DNA of 64,000 nt. Source: a virus. The notes beneath the pieces are model-generated. The model saw nothing but the letters and a program-made list of their open reading frames with translations, ran no database searches and had not been told where the DNA came from. The DNA lies in the IMG/VR virus record IMGVR_UViG_3300032607_001425, positions 1 through 64,000 of that record. One strand, 5' to 3'. Numbering within the stretch: position 1 is the stretch's first letter; every line of letters starts with the position of its first letter. This document shows positions 39,383 through 54,182 of the stretch, piece by piece. Made by a program: the position numbers and the translations under genes.

Positions 39383-40018
39383 CTAAATAAATTCCATTGT
39401 TGATTTATTTTTATTTCTACCTGATAGCCAGGCTTGTAAAGTTGCTGGTAGTACTCCTATTGCTTTTGCTGCTGCTCGAACTGTCTCATAAACCTGTTCT
39501 GTCTCTGTATCCCGAACTGCTCTTGCACTTGGATTATTTGCTCCTTTCCAACTCTCTGCACCAGTCTTTGCCATCCTTATCTCTCGAAACTTCTGCCTTG
39601 TTATTTCTGAAGGTTTATTTCCTTTAAGTGAGTTTGATAGGTTCTTTTTATGCTCTTCTGTTCTTGGAGGCTTCTTCTTACCTCTATTACCATCTCCTAT
39701 TCTATTTGCTGTTTCTTGTGAGCAGTGTCCAGTTCTATCGTTTGTTTGAGTCAGTCGAAGATTTAATCCACCCTCTCCCAGTACGTTAAAGAAATCTTGC
39801 CAGTGTCTCTCACGGACGTTCAATTGATCTATCTCACACTCTTCCACTACTTCAAAGATATGCTCAGAGAAACCATATTTTACTAGTGAAACATATAGCT
39901 TTTTTTGATTTTTGCAACTCTGTAGGTGGCTGTATTCTCGTCGTCTCTTTTTTAGGTTGACCGATTGTCCAATATAAACTTTTCCACTTGGACTTGTAAT
40001 TTTGTAAATTCCTACCAT
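39383..40018 (-). CDS. GIY-YIG homing endonuclease between groEL and groES, 211 aa
   Basis: N-terminal GIYKITSPSGKVYIGQSVNL is the GIY-YIG core (GIY, then YIG, then R/K pairs). The middle has NUMOD3-like repeats (GNRGKKKPPRTEEHKKNLSN) and the end a NUMOD1-type DNA-binding segment (VRAAAKAIGVLPATLQAWLS). Free-standing endonuclease. Its 5' leader is the structured RNA at 40020-40109. Confidence 0.88.
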   Translation of the reverse strand: MVGIYKITSPSGKVYIGQSVNLKKRRREYSHLQSCKNQKKLYVSLVKYGFSEHIFEVVEECEIDQLNVRERHWQDFFNVLGEGGLNLRLTQTNDRTGHCSQETANRIGDGNRGKKKPPRTEEHKKNLSNSLKGNKPSEITRQKFREIRMAKTGAESWKGANNPSARAVRDTETEQVYETVRAAAKAIGVLPATLQAWLSGRNKNKSTMEFI

Positions 40019-40019
40019 A

Positions 40020-40109
40020 ATAAAAAAAGCTTAGGCTTTCAAGATTGGAGACTCTACTTGCCATAAGCTTTAGTTGATATTTTCTTTAAATATGTAGCTC
40101 CAATTCTAC
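40020..40109 (-). ncRNA. Structured leader RNA of the GIY-YIG gene (copy B)
   Basis: The outer stem AAAGCTTATGGC (40060-40071) with GCCTAAGCTTT (40026-40036) is followed by T residues and ATG. A small hairpin GTAG/CTAC (40106-40109 with 40094-40097) carries ATTGGAG (40098-40104) in its loop. This can pair with CTCCAAT (40044-40050) inside the outer stem, a pseudoknot. Paralogues at 52.5 and 62.2 kb keep the pairing with other bases; 59.5 kb is a variant. Confidence 0.65.
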
Positions 40110-40112
40110 GTA

Positions 40113-40125
40113 TATAAATAGCAAC
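40113..40125 (-). promoter_or_regulatory. Late-type promoter of the GIY-YIG leader
   Basis: The minus strand reads AAAAAGTTGCTATTTATA just upstream of the structured leader. Confidence 0.5.
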
Positions 40126-40146
40126 TTTTTGTAGAAACCTACCAAA

Positions 40147-40449
40147 CTACTCTGCCTTCCTAATGGTAGCAAGGATTTCTCTGTCTGGTGTAATGAAGTA
40201 CTCTTGACCTTCAAAGTCAATACGAATGGTTCCTATCTTAGGAATCAATACAATGTCTCCTACTTTAGCTTCTACTCTAATAAATTGTCCAAATTCAGAC
40301 TGGCGTCCTGGACCTACGGAAACTACTTCACCCATTTCTGGTCTTTCTTTTCCCATGTCTGGAATGATAATACTTCCAAACCTTTCTTCTCCTGACTCTA
40401 CAGGCTTAACGATAACTCTATCGCTGTTTGCTGATAACTGTTGTGACAT
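40147..40449 (-). CDS. groES: GroES-like co-chaperonin, 100 aa
   Basis: The Cpn10 fold is clear: SDRVIVKPVESGEERFGSII opens it, then mobile-loop region IIIPDMGKERPEMGEVVSVG and PGRQSEFGQFIRVEAKVGDI. It would cap the phage or host GroEL. Length normal for GroES. A promoter lies directly upstream and the GIY-YIG gene downstream. Confidence 0.93.
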   Translation of the reverse strand: MSQQLSANSDRVIVKPVESGEERFGSIIIPDMGKERPEMGEVVSVGPGRQSEFGQFIRVEAKVGDIVLIPKIGTIRIDFEGQEYFITPDREILATIRKAE

Positions 40450-40479
40450 AAACTGATTTTAATTTAAAACTTATTTCTA

Positions 40480-40510
40480 TTAATATAACAATAAATAGTA
40501 CGTGAGACAA
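40480..40510 (-). promoter_or_regulatory. Promoter for groES
   Basis: Minus-strand TTG (40508-40510), 20 bases, TATATTAA (40480-40487). Its TTG lies beside the stop codon of the DNA polymerase gene. Confidence 0.6.
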
Positions 40511-40513
40511 CTT

Positions 40514-42847
40514 CTAATGTCCTTCAGCAAAGTTATTTGCTAATTGTGGTGGTGCTTTTAATGTTACTCCTGGTAGTTGTGTTGTTAGTTCCATTAACTC
40601 TTTTACGTATGGCATAAACATTTCTGCTTGATCTTCTCTTACGTTTATAATTAACTGGTCATGAATTTGAGCTTGCACTCTTGCATCTACTCCTAACTCT
40701 TTTGCCTTTCTGTTAATTTGAATTGCTGCTCTGTTTACAACCGCTGCTGCTAGACTCTGTAATTGAAAATTTAAACAGTTATTGATTCCATTTCGATAAT
40801 CCATGTACATTTTGTTGACTGGATCTTTTCCATATCTACTCTCTAGATCTTTTCTAAATCTCCAATCCAATACCTGATCTCCAAACTTTTCAAAGATCTG
40901 TTTTACTTTTGGTAAATGTCTAATCCTTCCTACTTTATTTGTAACAAATCCATGAGTCTTTGCTTGGTTACGTGAAGCAATCATCCATTCTCTTAGTTGT
41001 GGGAATCCACTTAAGTATCCTTCGACCAATTTATCTCCTTCCTTAGCAGAGATTCCCAATGTCATTGCTAATGCATATCCTGACATTCCATATGCTACTC
41101 CTAAAGAGTATGACTTTGCTTGTTGTCTTTTGACTGGATCTAGTTTTTTTAGAAAGATTGGTGACTTGGTATCTGGTGATACTCCGTTTGGATACCTTAG
41201 TGTATTTTGATCTAACTTTTCTGTCTTGATTGCAATTGTAGAATAAAAGTCCCATCCATTGTTAAAAATATCCTGCAGTCCTTTATCTCCTGATACACTT
41301 GCAAAGCAGTGAGGTTCTAATGAAGTATAGTCATTATCAATCAACTTTCTACCTTCCCCAGCAATTAGAAATTCTCTTACTACATTTGTGTAATGTACAA
41401 GTAGTGCAGTTTCTTCTCCCTCCTCTTTTGGCTTTGGAAGTTGTTGAGCATCTGAACCGTAACGTCCTGATACTGTTCCATTTTGCTTGTAGTAAAAATA
41501 GTATCGTCCATCCTCTTGTCCGTCTAAGAATCTATCAATGTATGTTGATTTGATCTTAACTAATTTATTGTACGTTCTAAGATTATTGGCCCACTCATAC
41601 GTCTTAGCAAGCTCCTCTAACATATCCATATCAAATTGGTCTTGACCTTTCTTTGTTTGAGTAAGTGGTTTGATTCCCATATACTTAAATGCAATCTCAC
41701 CTAAGTGTTTCTTTGATTGGATGTTTAAGTACACTCCCTCATTCTCATCTTTCCACATTGACATAGAAATTCTAACAACTTCCATTTGATCTAATAAACT
41801 TAGATCTCCTGTTTGAAGGAATTGTTTTATGTTATCGTCGTCTAGGTTGTCGATGTCTTTTTTTGCTAAAGAATATTTCTTTGTTTTCTCACTTCTTGGT
41901 AATGGTAGTGAGTACATCATTGCTAAGTTCTGAGCCCAGTTACCTCTATGTGAAGGTGGATACGTTGCTAGTGCTGTATCTACTACCCATTCTTTTGCTT
42001 CTGGAATTGCTAGGATGCTGTCTATTACAATTTTCTTGTTTGCTTCTAAATCTCTTATGATATCCTCTTTGGTCTTTTCCAATAGTGGAAGATCCAATGC
42101 TACTCCTAACTCTTCCATTGGAACAGTAACTTCTCTGTAAAGAGGCATTACTTCTTCCTCAAAGAAAAAAGTTTCTAGGTTTTCTTGTCTTAAAACTTTT
42201 AAGAAATGATTACAAACTCTAAGAGTCAAATCGGTATCGGCTGCTGCATACTTGGATAAAATCTCCATATCTGCTTTGAAGATCTCGTAGTTGTCTTTTG
42301 TAATAGATCCTCCATTCTTTTTAATAGACTCCTTAAGCTCTACCTGTTCTTTGTTGGCTGCTTGTTGTACATCCAATCCAATCTCTTCTTGAATAGAAAT
42401 TGCCAGTGCCTTTAGTCCAAACACTCCCATACCTGCTCCTTCTTCTTGTACTGTATGAACAAGTAGTGCTGTATCAACCCAAAGATCTTCTAATAGAGAT
42501 ACTCCGTAGTAGTTTTTAGTATAACGGCAGTCAAAAGAAGCATTGTGCATTACCAGCTTCTTGCCCTTGAGCAGCGGGAGTAGCTTCTTAGTAATACCAT
42601 GTGCTCCTTTGCCGCCAATGATACATTCCTCTAATTGATTTGTTTCGTTATTCCATTTCTGAGTTGGGAGGTAAAATCCTATTCCTTCTTCACCTGATAC
42701 AGACCATCCTACAATAGATCCTTTTCTTACATTTAACCCATCTGTTTCTGTATCATAAGCAATAACCTCAGACTGATTGATATGTTCGATAAGAAGGTTG
42801 ACTGTGTCGATACTGTCAACGTGGTAGTATTTTTTTTCTATTTGCAT
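40514..42847 (-). CDS. polA: Family A DNA polymerase with 3'-5' exonuclease, 777 aa
   Basis: Start chosen at ATG 42847 (MQIEKKYYHV), because the promoter -7 lies at 42866-42873. Exo domain: IAYDTETDGLN (DxE), NASFDCRYTKNYYG and YAAADTDLTLR. Polymerase: motif A DYTSLEPHCFASVSGD, motif B RQQAKSYSLGVAYGMSGYAL and motif C QIHDQLIINV. Motif C has HDQ where Pol I has HDE, a change at a residue near the catalytic Asp. No 5' nuclease domain. This is likely the phage replicase. Confidence 0.92.
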   Translation of the reverse strand: MQIEKKYYHVDSIDTVNLLIEHINQSEVIAYDTETDGLNVRKGSIVGWSVSGEEGIGFYLPTQKWNNETNQLEECIIGGKGAHGITKKLLPLLKGKKLVMHNASFDCRYTKNYYGVSLLEDLWVDTALLVHTVQEEGAGMGVFGLKALAISIQEEIGLDVQQAANKEQVELKESIKKNGGSITKDNYEIFKADMEILSKYAAADTDLTLRVCNHFLKVLRQENLETFFFEEEVMPLYREVTVPMEELGVALDLPLLEKTKEDIIRDLEANKKIVIDSILAIPEAKEWVVDTALATYPPSHRGNWAQNLAMMYSLPLPRSEKTKKYSLAKKDIDNLDDDNIKQFLQTGDLSLLDQMEVVRISMSMWKDENEGVYLNIQSKKHLGEIAFKYMGIKPLTQTKKGQDQFDMDMLEELAKTYEWANNLRTYNKLVKIKSTYIDRFLDGQEDGRYYFYYKQNGTVSGRYGSDAQQLPKPKEEGEETALLVHYTNVVREFLIAGEGRKLIDNDYTSLEPHCFASVSGDKGLQDIFNNGWDFYSTIAIKTEKLDQNTLRYPNGVSPDTKSPIFLKKLDPVKRQQAKSYSLGVAYGMSGYALAMTLGISAKEGDKLVEGYLSGFPQLREWMIASRNQAKTHGFVTNKVGRIRHLPKVKQIFEKFGDQVLDWRFRKDLESRYGKDPVNKMYMDYRNGINNCLNFQLQSLAAAVVNRAAIQINRKAKELGVDARVQAQIHDQLIINVREDQAEMFMPYVKELMELTTQLPGVTLKAPPQLANNFAEGH

Positions 42848-42865
42848 AACCTTTTTATATTTGTA

Positions 42866-42896
42866 ATAAGATACAAAAAGAGTCACATTTCTGCAA
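42866..42896 (-). promoter_or_regulatory. Promoter for DNA polymerase
   Basis: Minus-strand TTG (42894-42896), 20 bases, TATCTTAT (42866-42873), overlapping the hairpin at 42875-42904. Confidence 0.68.
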
Positions 42897-42904
42897 CTCT
42901 TTTT
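42875..42904 (-). terminator. Terminator overlapping the polymerase promoter
   Basis: The minus strand forms AAAAAGAGT, an 11-base loop, then ACTCTTTTT, ending the upstream genes. Confidence 0.65.
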
Positions 42905-42913
42905 CTATTTATT

Positions 42914-43105
42914 TTACTCTGGATTGTTCGTTAAATCAGCATCGAGAATGCTGTTATGTAGATCAGACACTATACTATCTAGTGATTCTAACATTTTTAC
43001 ATTACTTGCTGTTTGCATAGCCTGTAATGCCACTGCTAACGGAACCATCTGCACTCCTTGTACATCCTGTGCACTTGCCTGTAGGTATTGTTCTAACTCT
43101 TCCAT
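42914..43105 (-). CDS. Small hypothetical protein, 63 aa
   Basis: Starts MEELEQYLQASAQDVQGVQM. Helical and acidic; VPLAVALQAMQTASNVKMLE is a hydrophobic middle. It overlaps the end of the dpdA-like gene by 13 bases, so the two are coupled. Function unknown. Confidence 0.65.
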   Translation of the reverse strand: MEELEQYLQASAQDVQGVQMVPLAVALQAMQTASNVKMLESLDSIVSDLHNSILDADLTNNPE

Positions 43106-43890
43106 ACTGCTGTCTTATGTGCTTGGTTGAGTAAAAACTGTACATTACTCTCAATTAGTTCACGATTAACACTTGACATATCAAACGTCTCTAAGAAGTT
43201 ATGAGGTGTAGGGGTGCGTGTTGTATGATCTTTTGTAAAATCCTGTCCTAGAGACGCTGCAAACACTGGATATACTGAGTCAGTACTCCTCATCATTGGA
43301 TGATCATAGTATGCGAACTCTGTTGGATCTCCTTGTCCTAAACAGTGAATAGGCTTTACTAATAATCCTTTTTCCTTCAAGTAATCATATGCCATGTGAC
43401 GTGCTTCCTTAATTCCTTGATCGTCTGTATAATTTTCTAGGAATACATTTGGTACTGCTATTTTTGAAAATCCTATTATATCAATCCAACTTTGGTTTAT
43501 TGCCCAGTTGTATGCATTCAACCATGCTTCTTTAGTCTCTCCTTGTGGACAGAAAAAGATATCAATCGTTCCTAACAATCCTTCTTGCTCCATACGATCT
43601 CTAAACATTCTCGCATTAGCAATTGTATCCTCTTTATTAAATAAAACGTCTGGTGCTATTACTTCGTCAGGCATTAACTCTCTACAGATTTCAATTAAGA
43701 TATCTTCTGTTACCAATGCTCTTTCAGCTGCTGAGTTATCTAATGTAATGAACTTTCCTTGCTCTTTTTGATCTAGGATAAATGCTCTGTACTCTGGAAA
43801 CTGAACCCATAAGTGAGCCAATGCGAAGATGCGATCTCCCAACTTCATTGGCTCTAAGTCACTTACTGGTGATATTACGTATACGTCCAT
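43093..43890 (-). CDS. dpdA: DpdA-like DNA-guanine transglycosylase, 265 aa
   Basis: A TIM-barrel TGT-like enzyme: KFITLDNSAAERALVTEDIL carries the region where TGTs have their first catalytic Asp, followed by PDEVIAPDVLFNKEDTIANA. IDIIGFSKIAVPN is a later strand. Viral DpdA proteins use this scaffold to exchange guanine in DNA for a 7-deazaguanine base. It lacks the zinc-site Cys cluster of tRNA TGTs, as expected for DpdA. The FolE/QueD/QueE genes nearby supply the base. Recognition is moderate. Confidence 0.7.
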   Translation of the reverse strand: MDVYVISPVSDLEPMKLGDRIFALAHLWVQFPEYRAFILDQKEQGKFITLDNSAAERALVTEDILIEICRELMPDEVIAPDVLFNKEDTIANARMFRDRMEQEGLLGTIDIFFCPQGETKEAWLNAYNWAINQSWIDIIGFSKIAVPNVFLENYTDDQGIKEARHMAYDYLKEKGLLVKPIHCLGQGDPTEFAYYDHPMMRSTDSVYPVFAASLGQDFTKDHTTRTPTPHNFLETFDMSSVNRELIESNVQFLLNQAHKTAVWKS

Positions 43891-43893
43891 TAT

Positions 43894-44649
43894 TTATTTT
43901 TTTAATTGTTTATATTCATATATTTGCTTTACCATACTAAAAAAATCCTGTTCTGGCAAATCCATTTTCATTTTATTAATGTGCTTATGAACCCACTGTA
44001 TATTTCCTAGTACATATCCCTGCTTTGAGTCTATCCTATCAAGAGAAGCTGTGCTAATCTCCTTTGCTCCAAGAGTTCCTTTACCCTTGTCTGAAAATTC
44101 TATCTGCATATTTGATATAGCACATCGTCTGTTTTGTTGTTCGTACAGCTCATACAAATACTGTGGAGTTACTAGCCATTGCTTCTTTCTTAATCTAGCA
44201 CCCTGTTCGTAACGTCTTATATCTCCCATTGGTATACATCCTACTTTTTCTACTAGATACTTTTGCAATCTACACTTTTCACACTGTGTTGATAAGCCTC
44301 TTGTTATGTGAGATGTTCTAATATGCTTTTCTGTTCCACAGTCGCATCTACAATTGTACTGACGTTCTAGTATATTTCCATTCTTCCTATATAGAAGTGT
44401 ATAGTCGTTCACGTCTATTACAGTCCACTTTCCAAAGCGTTTTCCAGTTACAATTCCTGCTTTTGGCTTTTTTGCATAGCAGGAGGTGCATTGCTTAGTA
44501 ACTCCTCTTAGTAGGTCTGTTTGTCGTTGTTGTTTAGTAAATCCACAATCACAGATACAATCAATCTTTTGAGCTGTGTGTGTTTGCGTAACTGTCCAAT
44601 GCCAGAAGCGATCTCCTGCTTGCACTTTAATAGTAGAAATATCAGCCAT
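43894..44649 (-). CDS. HNH-type endonuclease with zinc repeats, 251 aa
   Basis: Two pairs of zinc-like Cys clusters (IDCICDCGFTKQQRQTDLLR, QCTSCYAKK; YNCRCDCGTEKHIRTSHITR, QCEKCRLQK) precede an HNH core (QNRRCAISNMQIEF, then TASLDRIDSKQGYVLGNIQW and VHKHINKMK). Free-standing homing-type endonuclease between folE and dpdA. A late-type motif is about 17 bases upstream of its start. Confidence 0.85.
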   Translation of the reverse strand: MADISTIKVQAGDRFWHWTVTQTHTAQKIDCICDCGFTKQQRQTDLLRGVTKQCTSCYAKKPKAGIVTGKRFGKWTVIDVNDYTLLYRKNGNILERQYNCRCDCGTEKHIRTSHITRGLSTQCEKCRLQKYLVEKVGCIPMGDIRRYEQGARLRKKQWLVTPQYLYELYEQQNRRCAISNMQIEFSDKGKGTLGAKEISTASLDRIDSKQGYVLGNIQWVHKHINKMKMDLPEQDFFSMVKQIYEYKQLKK

Positions 44650-44665
44650 AGTTATAGTATTTTAT

Positions 44666-44678
44666 TATAAATATAGCC
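44666..44678 (-). promoter_or_regulatory. Late-type promoter motif
   Basis: The minus strand reads GGCTATATTTATAATAAAA before the HNH start at 44649. Confidence 0.35.
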
Positions 44679-44699
44679 AATATTCCTAAAGCAAGATTT

Positions 44700-45350
44700 T
44701 TACAGTCTTGAGTTTTCAATCAAACTAAAAAACTCTTGGCGAGTGCCTATCTCATTGGTGTAGAAGTATTGGGATAGTTGAGATGTTTTCATTACACTTT
44801 CGTGATTCAAACCTCTACATCTTACACAATTATGCTGACTCTCAATAACTACTGCCACTCCTCTGTTACCAATACACAGCTTATCGACGTGGTCGTGGAT
44901 CTGCTTTGTAAGCGATTCCTGAACTTGTGGTCTGCGGCTGTAGAAGTCTACAATACGGTTCAACTTACTTAGTCCAATAACCTGATCTGTCTTTCCAGTT
45001 CCTGGGATGTATGCAACATGGGCCAATCCCAAAAATTGTAAATTATGGTGTCCACACATACTTATTACAGGAATTCGAGTCTGACAGATAAGTCCTGTGT
45101 ACCCTTCATCGTTAGGGAAGCTAGTAATAACTGGCTCGGCACTTACACTACCTGCAATAAGATCATTGATCCAAGCCTTTGCTACTCTCTTTGGAGTATT
45201 GGCTGAGTGTGGATCTTTTTCCCAATCAAATCCCAAAGCATTTAAAAACTGTCCATAGTAGATAGCTGCTTGGTCAATCATTTGGAGTTTCTCTTCTGCT
45301 GTACGTGGCATGTTTCCATTTGCCTTCTGTAACAATTCTAACTGTTTCAT
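44700..45350 (-). CDS. folE: GTP cyclohydrolase I (FolE), 216 aa
   Basis: Catalytic region [20 protein letters not shown] (Cys-Gly-His-His), [20 protein letters not shown] and [20 protein letters not shown] (Cys pair of the zinc site) are all intact. It makes dihydroneopterin triphosphate from GTP, the first step of 7-deazaguanine synthesis. Length normal. Confidence 0.95.
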
Positions 45351-45355
45351 ATAAC

Positions 45356-45829
45356 TTATATTTTGTTTTGTTCTTTTAATATACTAAATAATTCTGATAA
45401 TCCCAACTCATTATCTCTTTTTTCTGCTTCTTCGAATGTTAAAGTATCTTTTGGATCTTTACGAGCTTCAAACCTTCTTTTACGCTCTGCACTACTAACC
45501 TCCAACCATTTGTATTCTAACTCTACGTTCTTAAACTGCTCAGTAAGCCATCGTTCAATTGGTTGTAAAACTGTATACTGTCTGATTCCATCTATGATGT
45601 AACACTCTGGTGATCCTTCAGCGTAGGCCATGTAGTTCCAGATAGTCTTAACTATTTCATCTACAATTCTAGTATCAAGATGCTTGGAATTTTGTAACAC
45701 CTCTCTATCCTCAGATTGCATTAATTCCTTAACAAAATCTGAAACTATTAGCTTTACTGAATGCTCGTCGTTGTGGTTGTATGTGCTCTTGCCTGAGCAT
45801 ATCTCTCCAAATAAAAATACTACTTTCAT
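45356..45829 (-). CDS. P-loop nucleotide kinase-like protein, 157 aa
   Basis: The P-loop is [31 protein letters not shown] is the base-binding region and [14 protein letters not shown] the lid Arg cluster, a layout like T4-type deoxynucleotide monophosphate kinases. It lies between folE and the T-fold gene, so it may phosphorylate a modified nucleotide or ordinary dNMPs. Specificity not visible. Confidence 0.7.
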
Positions 45830-46170
45830 TATTTCTCAACTATTCCAAAGAACTCTCCGTCTTCTGACACTGAGCACTTATCTAGGTTAAACTGTACTAG
45901 TAAATCCTCTGCAATATGCTCACAAGACATGCTTCCAAAGTTACAGCAGCTATATGTAGCATCGTACCACTTCTCTTGTATGTACGATCTAATTTTGTGC
46001 TTAAAATCAATAAACTCTGTTTCTCTATTTGAGTGACCTACTTCCAGCATGCATGCTACTTGGAATGTATGTCTGTGTGGATATTTTAGGTACTGTACAT
46101 TTGGTAGATTACAATCATCCCAACAGTGTAGTCCTTCTATATCAATTCTTACTTCTATACTTTTTTTCAT
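45829..46170 (-). CDS. QueD-related T-fold protein, DpdL-like candidate, 113 aa
   Basis: Second start used: ATG at 46170 (MKKSIEVRIDIEGLHCWDDC). Blocks NLPNVQYLKYPHRHTFQVAC, NRETEFIDFKHKIRSYIQEK and NFGSMSCEHIAEDLL follow the 6-pyruvoyl-tetrahydropterin/QueD plan, with His residues placed for metal binding but without the QueD Cys motif. From memory, a QueD paralogue (DpdL) decarboxylates the base in Cellulophaga phages. The frame continues upstream into an HNH gene with no stop. Confidence 0.6.
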   Translation of the reverse strand: MKKSIEVRIDIEGLHCWDDCNLPNVQYLKYPHRHTFQVACMLEVGHSNRETEFIDFKHKIRSYIQEKWYDATYSCCNFGSMSCEHIAEDLLVQFNLDKCSVSEDGEFFGIVEK

Positions 46171-46776
46171 AATATTTCCTTTATACTTTCTTATTTTTAA
46201 ATTTTCTTCCCAACTAATAAATCGTAGGTTGGTTAAATCTGATACTTGTTCGGGAGTCCATCCTTCGTACCAGCAGTCTATTATTGGTCTTATGTGGTCA
46301 ATTTGATATGCTCCAGGTATTCCTGCCCTACCTCTTTTATCCTCAACATACCCTTCTATCTGCTCCTTTACTCGTTCAGTAAGTACCACTACTCTATTAC
46401 GAAACTGCTTATAAGTTTGTTGTGTATTGTGATACTTAAATTTACCATAATTTGGATTACGATCTCCTGCAGTACCTCCACTAAGCTGCTTAGTTTGTTT
46501 AATTTTCTCCCTAGTCACTTCATCCCTAGGCACTCCCCTATTCCATGCAGGCTTACCTTTACTTGGATTATTTTGAAGAAACCTTTGAGACTGTTTAAGT
46601 ACTGCTTCAGGATCTGACCATCGTTTATTATTACTTGCCGTTGTTGCACAGCTTTTGCATACCCGACCTTCTTTTTCAAACCGCTTAGCAGTGTCATCTG
46701 CTCTTTTTTGGCTATGTAATGATGTATTTTGAATTAAACTCCTACAGTCACTGCATATTCTACTTGATTTGTACAT
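46171..46776 (-). CDS. HNH homing endonuclease in frame with the T-fold gene
   Basis: ATG at 46776 opens MYKSSRICSDCRSLIQNTSL. CSDC and CKSC zinc pairs, then a central NPNYGKFKYHNTQQTYKQFR and HNH core (GIPGAYQIDHIRPIIDCWYE, NLRFISWEENLKIRKYKG). There is no stop before MKKSIE at 46170, so the HNH can be read as a 315-aa fusion with the T-fold protein. Other HNH genes here end at this same point (PWLDNLRKR-stop). A late-type motif precedes 46776. Confidence 0.75.
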
Positions 46777-46788
46777 ACTATCTTTTAG

Positions 46789-46801
46789 TATAAATAGTAG
46801 G
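46789..46801 (-). promoter_or_regulatory. Late-type promoter motif
   Basis: The minus strand reads CCTACTATTTATACTAAAA before ATG at 46776. Confidence 0.38.
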
Positions 46802-46831
46802 GAATTCACATTAACCGTTATATGGAACAGG

Positions 46832-47311
46832 TTACTTGTAGTCCTTTTCTCCCAACCATTGACCGTTGTAGGCCTCTGCATCGTTATTATCAAATACGAT
46901 AATTTGGGCCACTCTTGCGCCTTTTTCTATTGTAATTGGTCGAGTTGCAATAAGTACTGCTCCCATTTCATCCACATAGAAAGATGGATCATAAACTCCT
47001 GACGTAATGGTTGCTCCACATCTTAGAACACTTGATCTGTGTCTGATGAAAGCTGTCTTGTTACTTGGAAGTTTTACTCCTTGTTCGAATGTTAGGCTGT
47101 AGCTTCCTGGACTAAGATTATATACTATTTTACCTTCTTTGGTAAAGGTTGGTACTTCTAGGTACGGCAATACTACAGTCTTATCTGAGGATACTGTTCC
47201 TCCTACAATCTGCTTAACTTCTTTCAGAGTTAGATCATAACCTACTTGAGCTTTCGCCCCTTTACCATTTGCCTGTAGAAGCTGTTCTACTTGGTTTGCG
47301 TTGTTTAGCAT
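46832..47311 (-). CDS. dUTPase/dCTP-deaminase family protein, 159 aa
   Basis: AQVGYDLTLKEV, then TAFIRHRSSVLRCGATITSG with VYDPSFYVDEMGAVLIATRP and ITIEKGARVAQIIVF follow the trimeric dUTPase/dCTP deaminase fold. RHRSSVLRCG is the dCTP-deaminase-like variant of the motif usually R-S-S-x5-G. It lowers dUTP or makes dUMP for thymidylate synthase. Own promoter upstream. Confidence 0.8.
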   Translation of the reverse strand: MLNNANQVEQLLQANGKGAKAQVGYDLTLKEVKQIVGGTVSSDKTVVLPYLEVPTFTKEGKIVYNLSPGSYSLTFEQGVKLPSNKTAFIRHRSSVLRCGATITSGVYDPSFYVDEMGAVLIATRPITIEKGARVAQIIVFDNNDAEAYNGQWLGEKDYK

Positions 47312-47326
47312 AACTTTATTTTTTTA

Positions 47327-47357
47327 CTAATATACAAAGAAGCCTCCGAAGAGGCAA
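47327..47357 (-). promoter_or_regulatory. Promoter for the dUTPase-like gene
   Basis: Minus-strand TTG (47355-47357), 20 bases, TATATTAG (47327-47334), overlapping the hairpin at 47338-47359. Confidence 0.68.
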
Positions 47358-47359
47358 CT
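47338..47359 (-). terminator. Terminator with TTCG loop overlapping a promoter
   Basis: The minus strand GCCTC-TTCG-GAGGC is a very stable hairpin followed by TTCTTT. Confidence 0.72.
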
Positions 47360-47362
47360 TTT

Positions 47363-47563
47363 TTATTCGATTATTTTAATAATTTTTGTCTGAGCTACTC
47401 GAATTACTTCGAAGTTGCTCTCTCCTTCAAACTCTTTATAGATCTTACTTTCTGCTTCTGTTGCTGAAACTGCATCTACTATATACTGCTCGTTTACTCT
47501 TTGTACTTTTCCCTTATCACTTTCGTGCTGTAACTGTACCGTTACTTGCCAATAATTGTTCAT
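47363..47563 (-). CDS. Small hypothetical protein, 66 aa
   Basis: Starts MNNYWQVTVQLQHESDKGKV. The pattern VDAVSATEAESKIYKEFEGE resembles small phage beta-alpha-beta proteins (DUF4494-like), which begin W-x-V-x-V and have the VxAxSxxEAExx helix; a tentative match. Function unknown. Confidence 0.6.
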   Translation of the reverse strand: MNNYWQVTVQLQHESDKGKVQRVNEQYIVDAVSATEAESKIYKEFEGESNFEVIRVAQTKIIKIIE

Positions 47564-47579
47564 GTTTATTTAATTTTAG

Positions 47580-47984
47580 TTATTTTTTTAAGTAATCTTG
47601 AATTGCTTCTGAGTCCTTTCTTTCCCATGGATAAATTATCCACTCATCCCCTTGGTGCACTTCTGCAAACATGCTTGGTGTAAATACTGATGTGTGAGGT
47701 TTATAATGGAGAACTGCTGTTGGAACTCCTTGCACTAGTGCTTTTAACGTTTCTCCTGTATCACAAATATCATCTATGACCAATGTACTTGCATTAATAG
47801 ATTCTACGTAAGGAATGTTCAGTCTGTGTGAGATCATTACTGCTGGTACCAATCCTCCTCTTTCAATTCCTGTTACACTTTTTATGTCAGGTCCTACTCT
47901 CTGAATTGTAATACATAGTTTGTTTACTAGTTCATCTACGTCATCCCAACTTAGATAAATTTTATTACCTGCTTTTAATGCCAT
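47580..47984 (-). CDS. Phosphoribosyltransferase-type protein, 134 aa
   Basis: The PRPP-binding loop TLVIDDICDTGETLKALVQG is diagnostic of type I phosphoribosyltransferases, and VTGIERGGLVPAVMISHRLN is the N-terminal PPi-binding loop. It is short for Gpt or Hpt (about 150-180 aa). Expected reaction: base plus PRPP to nucleotide. Located between QueE and dUTPase-like genes, so it could salvage purines or process a deazaguanine base. Confidence 0.83.
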   Translation of the reverse strand: MALKAGNKIYLSWDDVDELVNKLCITIQRVGPDIKSVTGIERGGLVPAVMISHRLNIPYVESINASTLVIDDICDTGETLKALVQGVPTAVLHYKPHTSVFTPSMFAEVHQGDEWIIYPWERKDSEAIQDYLKK

Positions 47985-48262
47985 TACACTTTTGCTATTG
48001 TAATACCTTCTACTCCTGTAATAACAATCTCTCCTACTGCTAATTGTATTGTATCGTTTTGAAGTTCTGCTGTAACATACTTTACTAGTTCCTGTACCGA
48101 TACTTTATCTTTGAATCCAGCTTTGCTTGAATTGCTTACAATTAGTTCTAAGTTTGTAGCATCTATTAATTTGTAATCCCAGATGTAAAGTCCATCTGCT
48201 TTAGGATATGATTTTAAAAGGTCTCTGTCTTGTGCTAAATTAATTAGGTCTTGTAACGTCAT
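47984..48262 (-). CDS. Hypothetical protein, 92 aa
   Basis: Starts MTLQDLINLAQDRDLLKSYP. Small alpha/beta protein (LYIWDYKLIDATNLELIVSN). Its end touches the start of the phosphoribosyltransferase gene. Function unknown. Confidence 0.65.
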   Translation of the reverse strand: MTLQDLINLAQDRDLLKSYPKADGLYIWDYKLIDATNLELIVSNSSKAGFKDKVSVQELVKYVTAELQNDTIQLAVGEIVITGVEGITIAKV

Positions 48263-48268
48263 TTTTAT

Positions 48269-48454
48269 TTATTTAATTGTGTATTTGGTTTTACCGTCTT
48301 GTGTTTGTGCTTTTATTTCTCCATTTGCTAGAACTGTTAGTTCTAGTTCAAACTCTTCTTTTAAAAGCCTCTTTACTGTAACAATGTTCATTGCCCTGTG
48401 CTTCCACATAGTGTGGAATACTCTTAATGTTTCCTCTGCATTTGCTTTTCTCAT
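48269..48454 (-). CDS. Small hypothetical protein, 61 aa
   Basis: I use ATG at 48454 (MRKANAEETLRVFHTMWKHR), which overlaps the queE stop as TAATG; the longer frame from 48499 lies inside queE. Basic and helical, with NGEIKAQTQDGKTKYTIK at the end. Function unknown. Confidence 0.62.
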   Translation of the reverse strand: MRKANAEETLRVFHTMWKHRAMNIVTVKRLLKEEFELELTVLANGEIKAQTQDGKTKYTIK

Positions 48455-49242
48455 TACACTTCTCTTTGGTCCTGAAATGCAATTATGTGAGGTCTCCAAG
48501 TTAATCTATAACCATTATCTCTCACCCAATCAAATAATTTTGGATATGATTTGAATAAAGCCTCTCTTGTATCTCCTGCTGGCATGAAATATATCTTGTC
48601 TTGAGGAATATCCATCATTCGAATAAAATCTATTATCTCTCCTAGGGCTACTTGATCTTCTCCATCCCATACTGGTTTTAAATGGTAATCAGAATGATAT
48701 GTAATCATTTTAGACATTGCATCATAATTAAGTCTTAGCTTGTTGTGTTGCTTAATCATTTTTTCATCCGTAACATCTCCTTGAGGAGTAAGTACTCCGA
48801 CTTTAGGTATCGAGTTACTAAATTTAGGTGATATGGAAAGTAAATTAATAGGATAGTCAGTCTCCAGAAAATGACTTCCTTCAGTTTCAATAGTGATAAA
48901 TATCTTTCTTTCATGTGCAAAATGCGTTAGTTCATTTACTAATTTAGGCCACATAGTTGGGCTTCCGCCTGTAAGCATCATCTCTGTGATGTGTGGATTT
49001 TCATTATAAATCCTAATTATATCATCAAAACTATATTTTGATTTATCAGGATGGATACTCGTGTACCAACTGTCGCACCAACCGCCTTCACCGAAATAGC
49101 AGCGGTGAGTGCAGCCTGTAGTTCGAATTACTACTGTAGGGTATCCAGCTCTACTCCCCTCTGATTGCACCGCTGTATAGAGCTCAGTAATTGCTGAGAT
49201 TTTATTTTTCTCCGCTTCTGTCATTCTTGTTATTTGTCCCAT
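48454..49242 (-). CDS. queE: 7-carboxy-7-deazaguanine synthase (QueE), 262 aa
   Basis: Radical SAM enzyme: VIRTTGCTHRCYFGEGGWCD holds the cluster Cys in an atypical C-x3-C-x7-C spacing. MLTGGSPTMWPKLVNEL is the SAM/metal G-G-x-P motif, and LLSISPKFSNSIPKVGVL the later substrate block. With FolE and QueD it makes CDG. It is longer than many phage QueE enzymes. Confidence 0.88.
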   Translation of the reverse strand: MGQITRMTEAEKNKISAITELYTAVQSEGSRAGYPTVVIRTTGCTHRCYFGEGGWCDSWYTSIHPDKSKYSFDDIIRIYNENPHITEMMLTGGSPTMWPKLVNELTHFAHERKIFITIETEGSHFLETDYPINLLSISPKFSNSIPKVGVLTPQGDVTDEKMIKQHNKLRLNYDAMSKMITYHSDYHLKPVWDGEDQVALGEIIDFIRMMDIPQDKIYFMPAGDTREALFKSYPKLFDWVRDNGYRLTWRPHIIAFQDQREV

Positions 49243-49715
49243 CGTAATGTTATGTGTTGATTTAGTAATTTATCTTTATATTTAATGTAGTATTCAATTA
49301 AGTAGTCCAACTCTCTTTGTTTACAATTCTCTTTAGAGGCCTCTTCTATTACTTCAAACTTAATCTTTTCAGGAGCATTATCGTAAGCAGCTTGTAAATA
49401 CTTATTGAAGTGATTACCTCTCTTTAAAGAGGCGTAGTGTCCTTGACTTCTCTCTCTCAATAAGCCTCTTCCTATATAGAATTCTTCAGTATCAATATTC
49501 CCTATTCTATAAATTCCATACCCACCTCTTAGTATAAAAGCCTTTGAATGTTTGCTAGAATTTCCTTTTTCCCTATTCCAAGACTTTCTACACTCTTTAC
49601 ACCTAGACTCTATTCCGTCTTTCCTACTTTTACTTTTGTAAAAATACTCGAATTCTAACTCCTTGCTGCAGATACAGCAGACTTTAGTTTTGGTACCTAC
49701 CGTATTGCTACCCAT
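49230..49715 (-). CDS. GIY-YIG endonuclease with N-terminal zinc cluster, 161 aa
   Basis: N-terminal CCICSKELEFEYFYKSKSRK then CKECRKSW forms a zinc cluster, followed by GIYRIGNIDTEEFYIGRGLL (GIY-YIG core) with RSQGHYASLKRGNHFNKYLQ and conserved Glu in KIKFEVIEEA. It ends 13 bases inside queE. No structured leader is seen upstream; the start overlaps the 49697-49999 gene by 19 bases. Confidence 0.82.
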   Translation of the reverse strand: MGSNTVGTKTKVCCICSKELEFEYFYKSKSRKDGIESRCKECRKSWNREKGNSSKHSKAFILRGGYGIYRIGNIDTEEFYIGRGLLRERSQGHYASLKRGNHFNKYLQAAYDNAPEKIKFEVIEEASKENCKQRELDYLIEYYIKYKDKLLNQHITLRWDK

Positions 49716-49999
49716 TCATAGGTAATTTTTTCTACTTTTTCTACTCTAGTTAGTTCTGAGAAATTATCTTCAAATCCATAATTATCATCCCAAACTACTT
49801 CATTAGTTTGCCATGTTCCTAAGTACTTATCAAAATCTTCTATATCTGTAAAATGATTTTTATGTTCTGGTAAAAATTCTATAATGTCTGTTCTATAAAA
49901 ATTGGATCCTCTTCTATGGTCCATATCGCTATCTATTGAGAATTCATCTATTTCATCAAACAATAATGGCTCTTCTTGGTATGTTACTCTGTTTATCAT
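49697..49999 (-). CDS. Hypothetical acidic protein, 100 aa
   Basis: Starts MINRVTYQEEPLLFDEIDEF. Acidic (about one residue in four D or E), many aromatic residues (FYRTDIIEFLPEHKNHFTDI), no known motif. It starts one base before the 2H phosphoesterase gene ends. Function unknown. Confidence 0.66.
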   Translation of the reverse strand: MINRVTYQEEPLLFDEIDEFSIDSDMDHRRGSNFYRTDIIEFLPEHKNHFTDIEDFDKYLGTWQTNEVVWDDNYGFEDNFSELTRVEKVEKITYEWVAIR

Positions 50000-50000
50000 C

Positions 50001-50540
50001 TTATCTTAGTTTAATTTGTAATTCAATTTTGTCTCCATTTGGTTTAGAGTATACAGCATGTGTTGGAGTTAATTCAAATTCCTGTCCTTTTAACATCTCA
50101 ACATATTTTTTACCAGTTCCTGGTTTTAAATAAGCAATAGTTGCATGAGGGTGATAATCAGGAAAATTTGTTGTATGAGGATATTTAGTCAATTCAGCAT
50201 TAGTTTCATGTAAGCTAGGACCTTTAACATTAAACTTAAATACATCGTATTGAGGATTATTAAATATAGAAGCATTAAATAATTTACAAGTTCCGAATTT
50301 AAATTTATCTAGAACATTAATTACATCCTCATCTGATACCTCTTCATGTAAACCAAATAATAGTGTAGTATGTGGTTCATCTTCAAAGCCAAATGATCTA
50401 TCACCTTCCTCGGTGTATGCATCTTCGGGGTTTATAACATTTTGGACTTTACTCATTTCAGGAAAATCAAAGTATAACATAGCACACCCGAACTCAAATT
50501 TCTGTTTTTCTTCCTTAAGAAGATCCATTAATTTTATCAT
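50001..50540 (-). CDS. 2H phosphoesterase-superfamily protein, 179 aa
   Basis: Start chosen at ATG 50540 (MIKLMDLLKEEKQ), one base after the queD stop. Two H-x-T motifs, EPHTTLLFG (about residue 60) and YHPHATIAYLKPG (about residue 130), mark the 2H superfamily (2'-5' RNA ligase, CPDase, Acb1). It could cut cyclic-nucleotide signals of CBASS as Acb1 does, or heal RNA ends with the ligase. Low certainty on role. Confidence 0.78.
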   Translation of the reverse strand: MIKLMDLLKEEKQKFEFGCAMLYFDFPEMSKVQNVINPEDAYTEEGDRSFGFEDEPHTTLLFGLHEEVSDEDVINVLDKFKFGTCKLFNASIFNNPQYDVFKFNVKGPSLHETNAELTKYPHTTNFPDYHPHATIAYLKPGTGKKYVEMLKGQEFELTPTHAVYSKPNGDKIELQIKLR

Positions 50541-50541
50541 C

Positions 50542-51006
50542 TTACTCTCCATATATTGCTGAATTTTTATGGTTTTCAAAAAATTGTACTTGAGTAACGT
50601 GGACTCTACCCGCTGTTTCCTCTTGTATGAATGCGTCTAGTTTTTCGTAAATATACTTTGCAAATTGCTCTGCTCCTATTACCGATAAGACTCTTACTTG
50701 AGCTACTCCTGCTTCATCCATTTTCTTAAACGATTCTAAGAAAGGATCATCCTCAGATACTATAAGAGTGTGGTCAAACATATAGTCCATCCACTCTTTT
50801 GCATTCATACCATCAATCTTTGTTTTTGCTCTTTTTAAAATTCCAAAATCAGCTACCCAGTTTCTATGGTCTAAGTCACCTTGAAAAGTAACATCAAAGT
50901 ATACGTCATAGCCATGTAGTTTCGAACAGTGCGTATCATCTGCTTTCCATTGACGAAATACCGTACTAAATCCTTCATACCTTTTTTTACTTCTAAATTT
51001 TTCCAT
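50542..51006 (-). CDS. queD: QueD, 6-carboxytetrahydropterin synthase, 154 aa
   Basis: YEGFSTVFRQWKADDTHCSK and LHGYDVYFDVTFQG hold the zinc His and the Cys near the end of strand one. WVADFGILKRAK and MFDHTLIVSEDDPF are the other signature blocks. It converts dihydroneopterin triphosphate to CPH4, step two of the pathway. Length normal for phage QueD. Confidence 0.88.
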   Translation of the reverse strand: MEKFRSKKRYEGFSTVFRQWKADDTHCSKLHGYDVYFDVTFQGDLDHRNWVADFGILKRAKTKIDGMNAKEWMDYMFDHTLIVSEDDPFLESFKKMDEAGVAQVRVLSVIGAEQFAKYIYEKLDAFIQEETAGRVHVTQVQFFENHKNSAIYGE

Positions 51007-51007
51007 T

Positions 51008-51730
51008 CTACTTTTTTATGTTTAAAGTTTGTAAATCTATTAAATTTGTATCAATTATATCGGATACCGTATAACTGCCGTACCCTGCTTCTCTAAAGGT
51101 CTTACCAATGTATATTCTATCATGTTCTTTCAGTTTATGATCAGTTGCAGCTACAGCTACTGCTGTTACTACTTTGTCTGGATTAGTGCATCTTCTACTT
51201 AGTGTACTCATGTCAATTCCTATTTCCCTATGTGCAATTTGTAATGAAGAGTAATTACCCAAAGGAGTAGTGTATATGTACTTGGTTTTTGCTCCTACTT
51301 TAAAAATATCTTGTTTAAATTCTACTAAAGAGCATGATCCTCTAAGTCCTGTTGATAGATGTAAATAACTGACCATTCCTACTAGTGGCTCCCTCTTAGC
51401 TCTTTTTTTTAGTTTAACCCGTAACTCTACCATCTCATTTTGAGATAATCCTGCATAAGTATTACCTCCTTCTCCACCTGTTGCTATATTATAAAATAAC
51501 TTACTTTGTACAGCATTTAGCAACTTTATCCATCTTACTTCTCCACTTCGGCAATCTTCTTTGTTGGAATACCTTTCTAGTATAATTCTAGTAAAGTTAT
51601 CTTTTCCGTACTTCTGTACTGCTCTTTTTAATAATTTACCTGACCCTAGGTAATTATCAGACTCCGGTCCTTCGTACTTACCTACATAACTCTTCCCATT
51701 AAACAAACATACTGTGAGATATACAAACAT
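51008..51730 (-). CDS. GIY-YIG homing endonuclease, 240 aa
   Basis: MFVYLTVCLFNGKSYVGKYE (GIY-YIG variant: VYL/YVG) with LGSGKLLKRAVQKYGKDNFT and the metal Glu in RIILERY. The C-terminal half has DNA-binding repeats (YSSLQIAHREIGIDMSTLSR). Next to queD but in its own frame. A late-type TATTTATTATAAA motif precedes the start. Confidence 0.83.
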   Translation of the reverse strand: MFVYLTVCLFNGKSYVGKYEGPESDNYLGSGKLLKRAVQKYGKDNFTRIILERYSNKEDCRSGEVRWIKLLNAVQSKLFYNIATGGEGGNTYAGLSQNEMVELRVKLKKRAKREPLVGMVSYLHLSTGLRGSCSLVEFKQDIFKVGAKTKYIYTTPLGNYSSLQIAHREIGIDMSTLSRRCTNPDKVVTAVAVAATDHKLKEHDRIYIGKTFREAGYGSYTVSDIIDTNLIDLQTLNIKK

Positions 51731-51841
51731 ACTTTTTTATAATAAATAGTACCGAAGTCTAAGAACTAGAGTTTGGAGGTACTAAAGATCTTTGTTGATT
51801 GAAATTTATTCATTTATTTGTTTTTATATAATGTACGAACT

Positions 51842-52492
51842 TTATTTTAAGATTCCAAACTTTTTATTAGATTTTTTTATATTATCTTGAGCCCACAGTG
51901 GTTGAAAATTTGTGTAATGATTTAGTTTATAAATTTCTTCTAAGGTTTGTGCAGATGAAATTGGGATAATATGATCAAAATGCCACTCACCATGGTTACT
52001 TAATGTCATACCTTCCTGAAATTTGTGCTCGATGTATATTAAAAATTCCTGCATTGAGCATCCTAAAATCTCTTCAGTAAGTTTGCTCTTTTTATAAAGT
52101 CCTTTACAAGCTCTACCAAAAGAACCTCCTACTAATGCCCTTACGCCACATATGGTTTTAAATAAAGGATCTACTTCTCTTCTACGAGTTGCATATTCTT
52201 GAGTACGTTTTTTAACATGCTCTATATTATTTTTATAATATTCAGAATAGCTATTAGGATTTTTTTCTTCCCACTGTTTCATATAGTTAGGATTTTGCTC
52301 CATCCATTCCTTTAGGTAATTAGGGTTTTCTAAATACCATTTTTGAAGATAATCAGGATTTTTTTCTCTCCAACTAGTATTCCTTATTTTACAACATTCT
52401 TTACATTCCCCAAACCTACCATCTAGGTTTCTTACATTCTTATAGTAATCTTCTAATAACTTTTCTTGATTACAAGTTATACATTTTTTCAT
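51842..52492 (-). CDS. HNH endonuclease with tandem N-terminal repeats, 216 aa
   Basis: Zinc cluster CITCNQEKLLEDYYKNVRNL and CKECCKIR, then about four tandem 11-residue repeats of NPNYLKEWMEQ type (NPDYLQKWYLE, NPNYLKEWMEQ, NPNYMKQWEEK), then HNH core HGEWHFDHIIPISSAQTLEE and NFQPLWAQDNIKKSNK. Free-standing; its 5' leader is the structured RNA at 52497-52586. Confidence 0.85.
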   Translation of the reverse strand: MKKCITCNQEKLLEDYYKNVRNLDGRFGECKECCKIRNTSWREKNPDYLQKWYLENPNYLKEWMEQNPNYMKQWEEKNPNSYSEYYKNNIEHVKKRTQEYATRRREVDPLFKTICGVRALVGGSFGRACKGLYKKSKLTEEILGCSMQEFLIYIEHKFQEGMTLSNHGEWHFDHIIPISSAQTLEEIYKLNHYTNFQPLWAQDNIKKSNKKFGILK

Positions 52493-52970: not shown

Positions 52971-54182
52971 TTAATTGCTTAAAGGTGCTTTGATTGTTGG
53001 GTGTGATTGGTAATCCTTTACTATGAAATCATCATTGTTTAAATGGCCTATCAAGCTTATTCTATTAGATAACGATTCGTAATAAGCGTCTGCTTTCAAA
53101 TGAACTAAGGTTGGTAATGCATAAGGTTGTCTTGTTCTAATTGGAGTTGGTTCGTAATAATCATTATCAAAATCAGGTAAGTTATTTGGATCAAAATTTC
53201 TTTCCATACCTGTTTCATAGTTATTGGTAAACCAAATATCGTATCTCTCTTCATCACTTAACTGTCTACCAATTTGTTCCTTTGCTTGTTCAATGTGATT
53301 TGAGTATAAATGAACATCTCCTAGATTTCCAATCAACTGGTCAGGAACCATATTAGCTTGTTTTGCAATTATTTCTAGTAACAATCCATAAGAAGCAATG
53401 TTGAATGGTAAACCTAAAAAGGTATCTACTGAACGTTGATTCCACATTAATGAGATTGCTCTATACTTTCCAGGATTGGTAATTTTTTCTTCTCTAGTTG
53501 TTGCTCTTGTATAAACTTGAAATCCATAATGACAAGGAGGTAGAGTCATTTGATCTAATTCTCCAACATTCCAAGCATTGACCATTAATCGTCTTGAGTC
53601 TGGATTTGTTTTAAGTTCGTTGATTAGATTTTGAATTTGGTCTATGTATCCGAAGGTGTCTGTTGCTGAGATGCTACCATTAGAAGTTTTATTTTTTCCT
53701 ATCCACTTTCTCCATTGTTTACCATAAATTGGACCTAACTCACCCCACTTGTTAGCAAACTCATCATCTCTTTTGATTGTATAGATGAACTCTTCTTGAG
53801 TCAAAAGTCTTATTTCATCCCCTACAACAAGTAGTAGTCTGTCATAAATCATATCATCCAAATCCCCAACGTCAGATTTCAACCACATTTTATCAACAGT
53901 ATCAACGTAGTTTTTATAAGCATCACCATCCCATATATGACAATTATTATCAACCAAATATTTAATATTTGTATCACCTCGAAGGAACCAAAGTAGTTCT
54001 GTTACAATTGTTTTGAATGGCATCTTCTTTGTTGTTAGAAGTGGAAAACCATCTTTCATATTGTGACGTATTTGTCTACCGAATATTGAGGTTGTTCCTG
54101 TACCTGTTCTGTCTTGTTTCTGTACTCCGTTGTCAAGAATGTCTTGGAGTAGGTCTATGTATTGCTTATCTAAAGTTGCCAT
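52971..54182 (-). CDS. thyA: Thymidylate synthase ThyA, enlarged, 403 aa
   Basis: DRTGTGTTSIFGRQIRHNMK, DSRRLMVNAWNVGELDQMTL, LPPCHYGFQVYT (catalytic Cys), QRSVDTFLGLPFNIASYGLL and NLGDVHLYSNHIEQ are all present. The Asn of PFN is kept, which fits dUMP rather than dCMP as substrate. It is longer than the usual 264-316 aa, with inserts at about 85-150 and 325-350. It supplies dTMP. Confidence 0.93.
   Translation of the reverse strand: MATLDKQYIDLLQDILDNGVQKQDRTGTGTTSIFGRQIRHNMKDGFPLLTTKKMPFKTIVTELLWFLRGDTNIKYLVDNNCHIWDGDAYKNYVDTVDKMWLKSDVGDLDDMIYDRLLLVVGDEIRLLTQEEFIYTIKRDDEFANKWGELGPIYGKQWRKWIGKNKTSNGSISATDTFGYIDQIQNLINELKTNPDSRRLMVNAWNVGELDQMTLPPCHYGFQVYTRATTREEKITNPGKYRAISLMWNQRSVDTFLGLPFNIASYGLLLEIIAKQANMVPDQLIGNLGDVHLYSNHIEQAKEQIGRQLSDEERYDIWFTNNYETGMERNFDPNNLPDFDNDYYEPTPIRTRQPYALPTLVHLKADAYYESLSNRISLIGHLNNDDFIVKDYQSHPTIKAPLSN

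Follow-up and report, generated by a model that had tools for sequence, protein, structure and literature searches.

What takes the place of QueC in a phage that carries the other genes for 7-deazaguanine DNA modification? The question is raised by the IMG/VR virus record IMGVR_UViG_3300032607_001425, a linear record of 102,119 bp, whose first 64 kb (positions 1 to 64,000, hereafter the window) encode FolE, QueD, QueE and a DpdA-like transglycosylase, together with a second T-fold protein at 45829-46170. The best explanation, and a probable one, is a QueC-independent 7-deazaguanine DNA modification pathway in which this second T-fold protein, a member of the family PHROG 17812, processes 7-carboxy-7-deazaguanine (CDG). 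Most likely it acts on CDG, the product of QueE, in the place of QueC.

The absence of QueC was established for the record and its relatives. Part of the record was aligned with the Flavobacterium phage vB_FspM_immuto (Immutovirus, 160 kb; hereafter immuto) at 83% nucleotide identity, and the window's phage is therefore an immuto-like phage; the shared genes are collinear, and polA and QueE are 87% and 85% identical, respectively. The phage probably infects a bacterium of the Bacteroidota. End repeats were looked for in the record and none was found, and since it is linear, without such repeats and shorter than the relatives of 157-166 kb, the record may be incomplete. The original prediction had noted that QueC was missing from the window and had proposed a search for the QueC motif SGGxDS in the rest of the genome. 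The absence extended to the whole 102 kb record, which gave no match to QueC (PF06508) and no SGGxDS in any frame. In immuto, queC (gene 028) sits between genes 023 and 239, whose homologues were located at 74.61-74.92 and 73.31-73.56 kb of the record in the same order, and the slot between them (73.56-74.61 kb, about 1 kb) contained no queC and only short open reading frames (ORFs). Because the syntenic queC slot is covered and free of queC, the absence is not merely a matter of possible incompleteness, and a QueC located elsewhere in the record was ruled out by the PF06508, SGGxDS and slot searches taken together. QueF was not found in the record either, and both QueC and QueF were absent from four relatives near the full size of immuto (156.9, 162.0, 159.4 and 165.6 kb). 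The record thus contains no queC, the gene by which a preQ0-type (QueC) DNA modification would be recognized.

The distribution of the T-fold protein was then compared with that of QueC. The T-fold set comprised the record itself, 10 complete named phages with the T-fold protein and 50 IMG/VR records with it (61 in all), whereas the QueC set comprised 80 viral loci fetched with a phage QueC, for 37 of which the whole record was searched. No convincing QueC was found in any of the 61, including no confident one in the 10 complete named phages. Among five weak PF06508 matches in the 50 IMG/VR records, three were rejected as QueC, being NAD synthases by Pfam (E 6e-40 or better), and one fell on an unassigned PP-loop protein from a contig of 328 kb; matches of 16 bits each were recorded in G032 and phage X1. 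In the QueC set, FolE was present in 71 loci, QueE in 75 and QueD in 65 (FolE, QueD or QueE in 77), and the T-fold protein was present in none of the 80 loci and in none of the 37 full records. It was likewise lacking in immuto, phi38:2, CP220, JenP2, Iggy and Mendera, each of which encodes QueC or a protein resembling it. Across some 150 records and loci, therefore, PHROG 17812 and QueC exclude each other, a relationship that is new here, and the T-fold protein co-occurs with FolE, QueD, QueE and DpdA where QueC is missing. Scans of viral contigs with the T-fold protein of phage Roos alone retrieved one locus, and with that of phage phiST alone none.

Two exchanges of one gene set for the other were recognized. 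In the first, immuto, whose QueC makes preQ0, carries queC and queF along with a formyltransferase gene and a diverged dpdA, where the window's phage has the T-fold gene, a kinase gene and another dpdA. In the second, the order FolE, QueC-like, TGT-like, QueE in Mendera corresponds to FolE, tRNA-guanine transglycosylase (TGT), glycosyltransferase, T-fold, QueE in ACP17, two related phages (PMC9025141). Immuto and the window's phage, which share a backbone but differ in the tailoring module, amount to a natural experiment. These observations bear on the supposition that a host QueC supplies preQ0, which DpdA inserts, while the T-fold protein does something unrelated. Although queC is common in bacteria and the DpdA of phage 9g is able to use host-made preQ0 (PMC6884629), both the reciprocal exclusion and the two swaps would be left without explanation, and we regard this supposition as very improbable. 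As a testable reading rule for phage genomes, after FolE-QueD-QueE it would be QueC or the T-fold protein, not both, that sets the DNA base.

Similar gene sets were found in other named phages. The original prediction had attributed this set to Cellulophaga phages, which is true of phiST, phi13:1 and phi19:2 and not of phi38:2. The first three resemble the window in having QueD, QueE, FolE, the T-fold protein, the kinase and the same DpdA subtype clustered without QueC, with proteins 31-72% identical by gene, but their phage backbone differs, and phiST has no homing endonucleases between the modification genes. Phage phi38:2, which is 7-deazaguanine-modified (PMC11515303), has QueC and QueF and no T-fold protein. 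Chryseobacterium phage MA9V-3 also has QueD, QueE, FolE, a dCTP deaminase-like (DCD) protein, the T-fold protein, the kinase and DpdA (46% identical) and no QueC; unlike the window, it carries thyA and recA inside the cluster, and an HNH domain from a different family is joined to its T-fold domain. Only folE and queE are mentioned in its genome paper (PMC13120357). Immuto, the nearest named relative, differs from the window by its queC, queF and formyltransferase, by a DpdA of 27% identity and by the lack of a T-fold protein.

The 45829-46170 protein gave no Pfam or NCBIfam match, including none to Pfam PTPS (6-pyruvoyl-tetrahydropterin synthase), and PHROG 17812 is annotated as of unknown function. 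Sequence profiles against the PDB did not link the family to QueD and returned chance matches only, such as bacterioferritin, and hhalign of the family with the phage QueD gave 85%, over the C-terminal part only. The AlphaFold model (pLDDT 95.5) was matched by Foldseek first to Escherichia coli QueD (E 2e-5, TM 0.72), and its best PDB matches were QueD and PTPS structures. In an alignment of 126 family members, H15, H32, H34, F36, V44, R49 and E52 were invariant, S82-C83-E84 and E103-D104 were invariant wherever the residue was present, and where QueD has its catalytic Cys, four positions ahead of the HxH zinc motif, 126 of 126 members had Leu (L28); the Asp-His pair of QueD was not recognisable in the family. 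By position, H15, H32 and H34 would correspond to the zinc ligands of QueD and E103 to its base-anchoring Glu, as the fold match supports. The protein thus appears to share with QueD/PTPS (PF01242) the fold, the zinc His triad and the anchoring Glu, but not the catalytic Cys, the conserved Asp-His pair or the Pfam PTPS match. As modelled, it is a QueD-fold enzyme that would be unable to carry out the QueD reaction in the way of QueD, because the catalytic Cys is Leu and no Asp-His pair can be recognised. The earlier description of it as QueD-like without the Cys motif agrees with both the fold match and the family-wide Leu.

In the proposed pathway, FolE, QueD and QueE would convert GTP to CDG, and the PHROG 17812 protein would use its zinc site and its anchoring Glu to bind CDG, which it would then process. 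In the most likely reaction CDG would lose its carboxyl group to give 7-deazaguanine, after which the DpdA-type transglycosylase would exchange guanine in the phage DNA for the resulting base. Bases of this kind are known to protect DNA against host nucleases, and the same role is assumed here. CDG is very probably the substrate, since QueC and the T-fold protein occupy the same branch point after QueE; decarboxylation is the reaction that we favour with less assurance, as somewhat the likelier outcome, and it makes chemical sense for a carboxylate held at a zinc site. DpdL, which Cui et al. 2023 are said to have described as a QueD-like CDG decarboxylase giving 7-deazaguanine, can be likened to PHROG 17812 by this description of its reaction and QueD-like nature; none of the family-library models bears the name DpdL. 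For tubercidin synthesis, decarboxylation of the CDG nucleotide by a UbiD enzyme has been proposed (PMC6112128). No UbiD was found in 15 genomes, so that the tubercidin-type route is not open to these phages.

Because QueC is absent and a Cys-less QueD paralogue is present family-wide, preQ0 or archaeosine is unlikely as end product and a CDG-derived base in the DNA is likely. The original prediction of CDG or 7-deazaguanine rather than preQ0 is accordingly kept as far as preQ0 is disfavoured and CDG or a derivative is expected; within it, plain CDG is less favoured than processed CDG because the T-fold protein closely tracks the loss of QueC. Plain 7-deazaguanine is our single best guess for the base. 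Insertion of CDG itself, with the T-fold protein as a carrier or DpdA partner and no catalyst, is improbable. A pathway without QueC does end at CDG, dCDG is reportedly known from the literature, and the T-fold gene adjoins dpdA or stands one gene away in phiST and MA9V-3, but the residues of the metal site and the acid residues do not vary at all, which speaks for catalysis. Moreover, Mycobacterium phage Bipper, in which only QueC is missing (PMC6884629), was found to have no T-fold protein, so that a CDG endpoint seems not to need one; phages of this type, with neither QueC nor the T-fold protein, may use CDG as the inserted base or depend on their host.

The genes of the window concerned lie on the minus strand between polA (40514-42886) and thyA (52971-54182), in the order dpdA, folE, kinase, T-fold gene, DCD-like gene, phosphoribosyltransferase, queE and queD, and the cluster is broken up by homing-endonuclease-like ORFs. 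The ORF list and the family searches placed FolE, QueD, QueE, the DpdA-like protein and the second T-fold protein where the original prediction had put them, all on this strand. The features are as follows.

43093-43890, minus strand: predicted DpdA-type DNA guanine transglycosylase, small form (265 aa), with a TGT-like fold (PHROG 20335, E 4e-51).
43894-44649, minus strand: HNH homing-endonuclease-like ORF between dpdA and folE, a mobile passenger outside the pathway.
44700-45350, minus strand: FolE, GTP cyclohydrolase I (Pfam PF01227, E 7e-43).
45356-45829, minus strand: small P-loop kinase (PHROG 19196, E 3e-13; AAA_33, E 6e-5), overlapping the T-fold stop codon.
45829-46170, minus strand: QueD-fold (T-fold) protein of 113 aa, proposed to process CDG (PHROG 17812, E 7e-21).
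46171-46893, minus strand: HNH homing-endonuclease-like ORF, a mobile passenger (PHROG 5104, E 8e-18).
46832-47311, minus strand: dCTP deaminase/dUTPase-like protein (Pfam DCD, E 5e-11), a conserved neighbour in the small-DpdA branch.
47580-47984, minus strand: phosphoribosyltransferase, a conserved neighbour (PHROG 8995, E 1e-16), the immuto copy being 65% identical.
48454-49242, minus strand: QueE, CDG synthase of the radical SAM type (PHROG 2076, E 1e-51), 85% identical to immuto QueE.
49230-49715, minus strand: homing-endonuclease-like ORF, GIY-YIG-type by eye, a passenger adjoining queE (from the ORF list).
50542-51006, minus strand: QueD, CPH4 synthase (Pfam PTPS, E 3e-16; PHROG 2389, E 2e-38).

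The DpdA-like protein belongs to a family without a name (PHROG 20335). Its model (pLDDT 93) had a tRNA-guanine transglycosylase as best PDB fold (E 2.5e-8), and all 50 best PDB matches listed were TGT. D51, D81 and D204-S205 were invariant in an alignment of 34 rows (A6), consistent with the acid/nucleophile pattern of TGT, and catalytic roles assigned to these Asp residues by analogy with TGT would fit. The protein shows a profile relation to the one annotated DpdA in immuto; this relation and the neighbouring genes lead us to predict that it acts on DNA and inserts a 7-deazaguanine.

In the QueD of the window the C-x3-HG motif, the Asp-His pair and the C-terminal Glu are present (alignment A5). 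In the same alignment, HGY replaces HGH and the first zinc position has no His throughout its clade, as also in QueC-bearing phages; the metal site of this phage QueD may thus differ from that of bacterial QueD. The start of queD is overlapped by a 2H-phosphoesterase-like protein (50001-50579) that weakly matches a family of phage RNA ligases and, below the cut-off (Pfam E 1e-4), the anti-CBASS protein Acb1.

The T-fold loci are of two kinds, 43 with the small DpdA of the window and 66 with a large TGT, in which DSGG(F/Y)Q was found in 65 of 68 ORFs. The P-loop kinase is present in 32 of the 43 and in none of the 66, and because the T-fold and kinase domains form one fused ORF in L036 (6279-7262) and L037 (9012-9980), the sequences suggest that the two proteins act together in the small-DpdA branch. 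In the large-TGT branch (L044-L128, L008, L009 and L135), a DegT aminotransferase occurs in 20 loci, and in 55 the T-fold gene is immediately preceded upstream by the gene of an unassigned protein (cluster c7) some 180 aa long.

Three sets of observations weigh against the pathway as proposed. First, a GT4-like glycosyltransferase was found in 59 and an NDP-sugar epimerase in 36 of the 66 large-TGT loci (Pfam matches of representatives). The glycosyltransferase would need a handle on the base that 7-deazaguanine does not have, which strains decarboxylation: either its target is a different one, or a substituent is left on the base that the T-fold protein releases. Second, Faecalibacterium phage Roos (L007, 8001-9899) has the T-fold gene with a TGT-like gene and a YhhQ/Vut_1 transporter (Pfam E 2e-42), and no FolE, QueD or QueE was seen within 10 kb; this is possibly a salvage version. 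Third, Vibrio phage D479 (L144, 1708-2514) encodes, besides the T-fold protein, a divergent relative of QueC in which the P-loop is altered (MSGIDS for SGGxDS) and CxxCxxC kept, and is the one possible exception to the exclusion among named phages.

The glycosyltransferase leads to a reading in which the substrate of the T-fold protein is CDG, free or already built into DNA, and the protein does not decarboxylate it but converts or holds the 7-carboxyl, so that a handle stays; it would be glycosylated in the sister branch, and the base of the window's phage would be a still-substituted 7-deazaguanine. The T-fold active site is identical in both kinds of loci, with and without the glycosyltransferase, and the kinase fused to the T-fold domain could supply activation. 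Yet the glycosyltransferase was found in none of the 43 small-DpdA loci, the kind of the window, the kinase is lacking from the large-TGT loci, the target of the glycosyltransferase may be something else, and dDG is said to be a real phage base. We consider this reading rather unlikely and retain decarboxylation of CDG for the window. More tentatively, with the odds somewhat against it, PHROG 17812 may be a QueC-replacing, CDG-using family that marks out a second great branch among viral systems of 7-deazaguanine DNA modification, the larger sub-branch of which has glycosylated 7-deazaguanine in its DNA. Members of this larger sub-branch are ACP17, PA5oct and Phosso, together with many viral contigs of aquatic origin; if this is true, the T-fold family leads to such contigs, in whose DNA there may be a 7-deazaguanine not described before and possibly bearing a sugar.

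The modification cluster is crowded with homing-endonuclease-like ORFs, of which 39383-52492 contains six or more (at 39383, 43894, 46171, 49230, 51008 and 51842). The T-fold ORF and the HNH ORF upstream of it form one open frame without a stop between them (45829-46893), and an HNH ORF of a different type is also in frame with the T-fold 5' end in a second phage (L005, 7647-8528). The HNH ORFs at 43894 and 46171 are not at these places in loci L010 and L011, and homologues of the former occur elsewhere in the same cluster of relatives. The T-fold protein of the window is 32-35% identical to those of L010 and L011, for which DpdA is 91-93% identical, and 67-71% identical to those of L017 and L018, for which DpdA is 74-77% identical. 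From these identities, the T-fold allele would have an ancestry different from that of its neighbour genes, likely through homing with endonuclease co-conversion, and an almost unchanged DpdA is evidently able to function with either of the two T-fold alleles.

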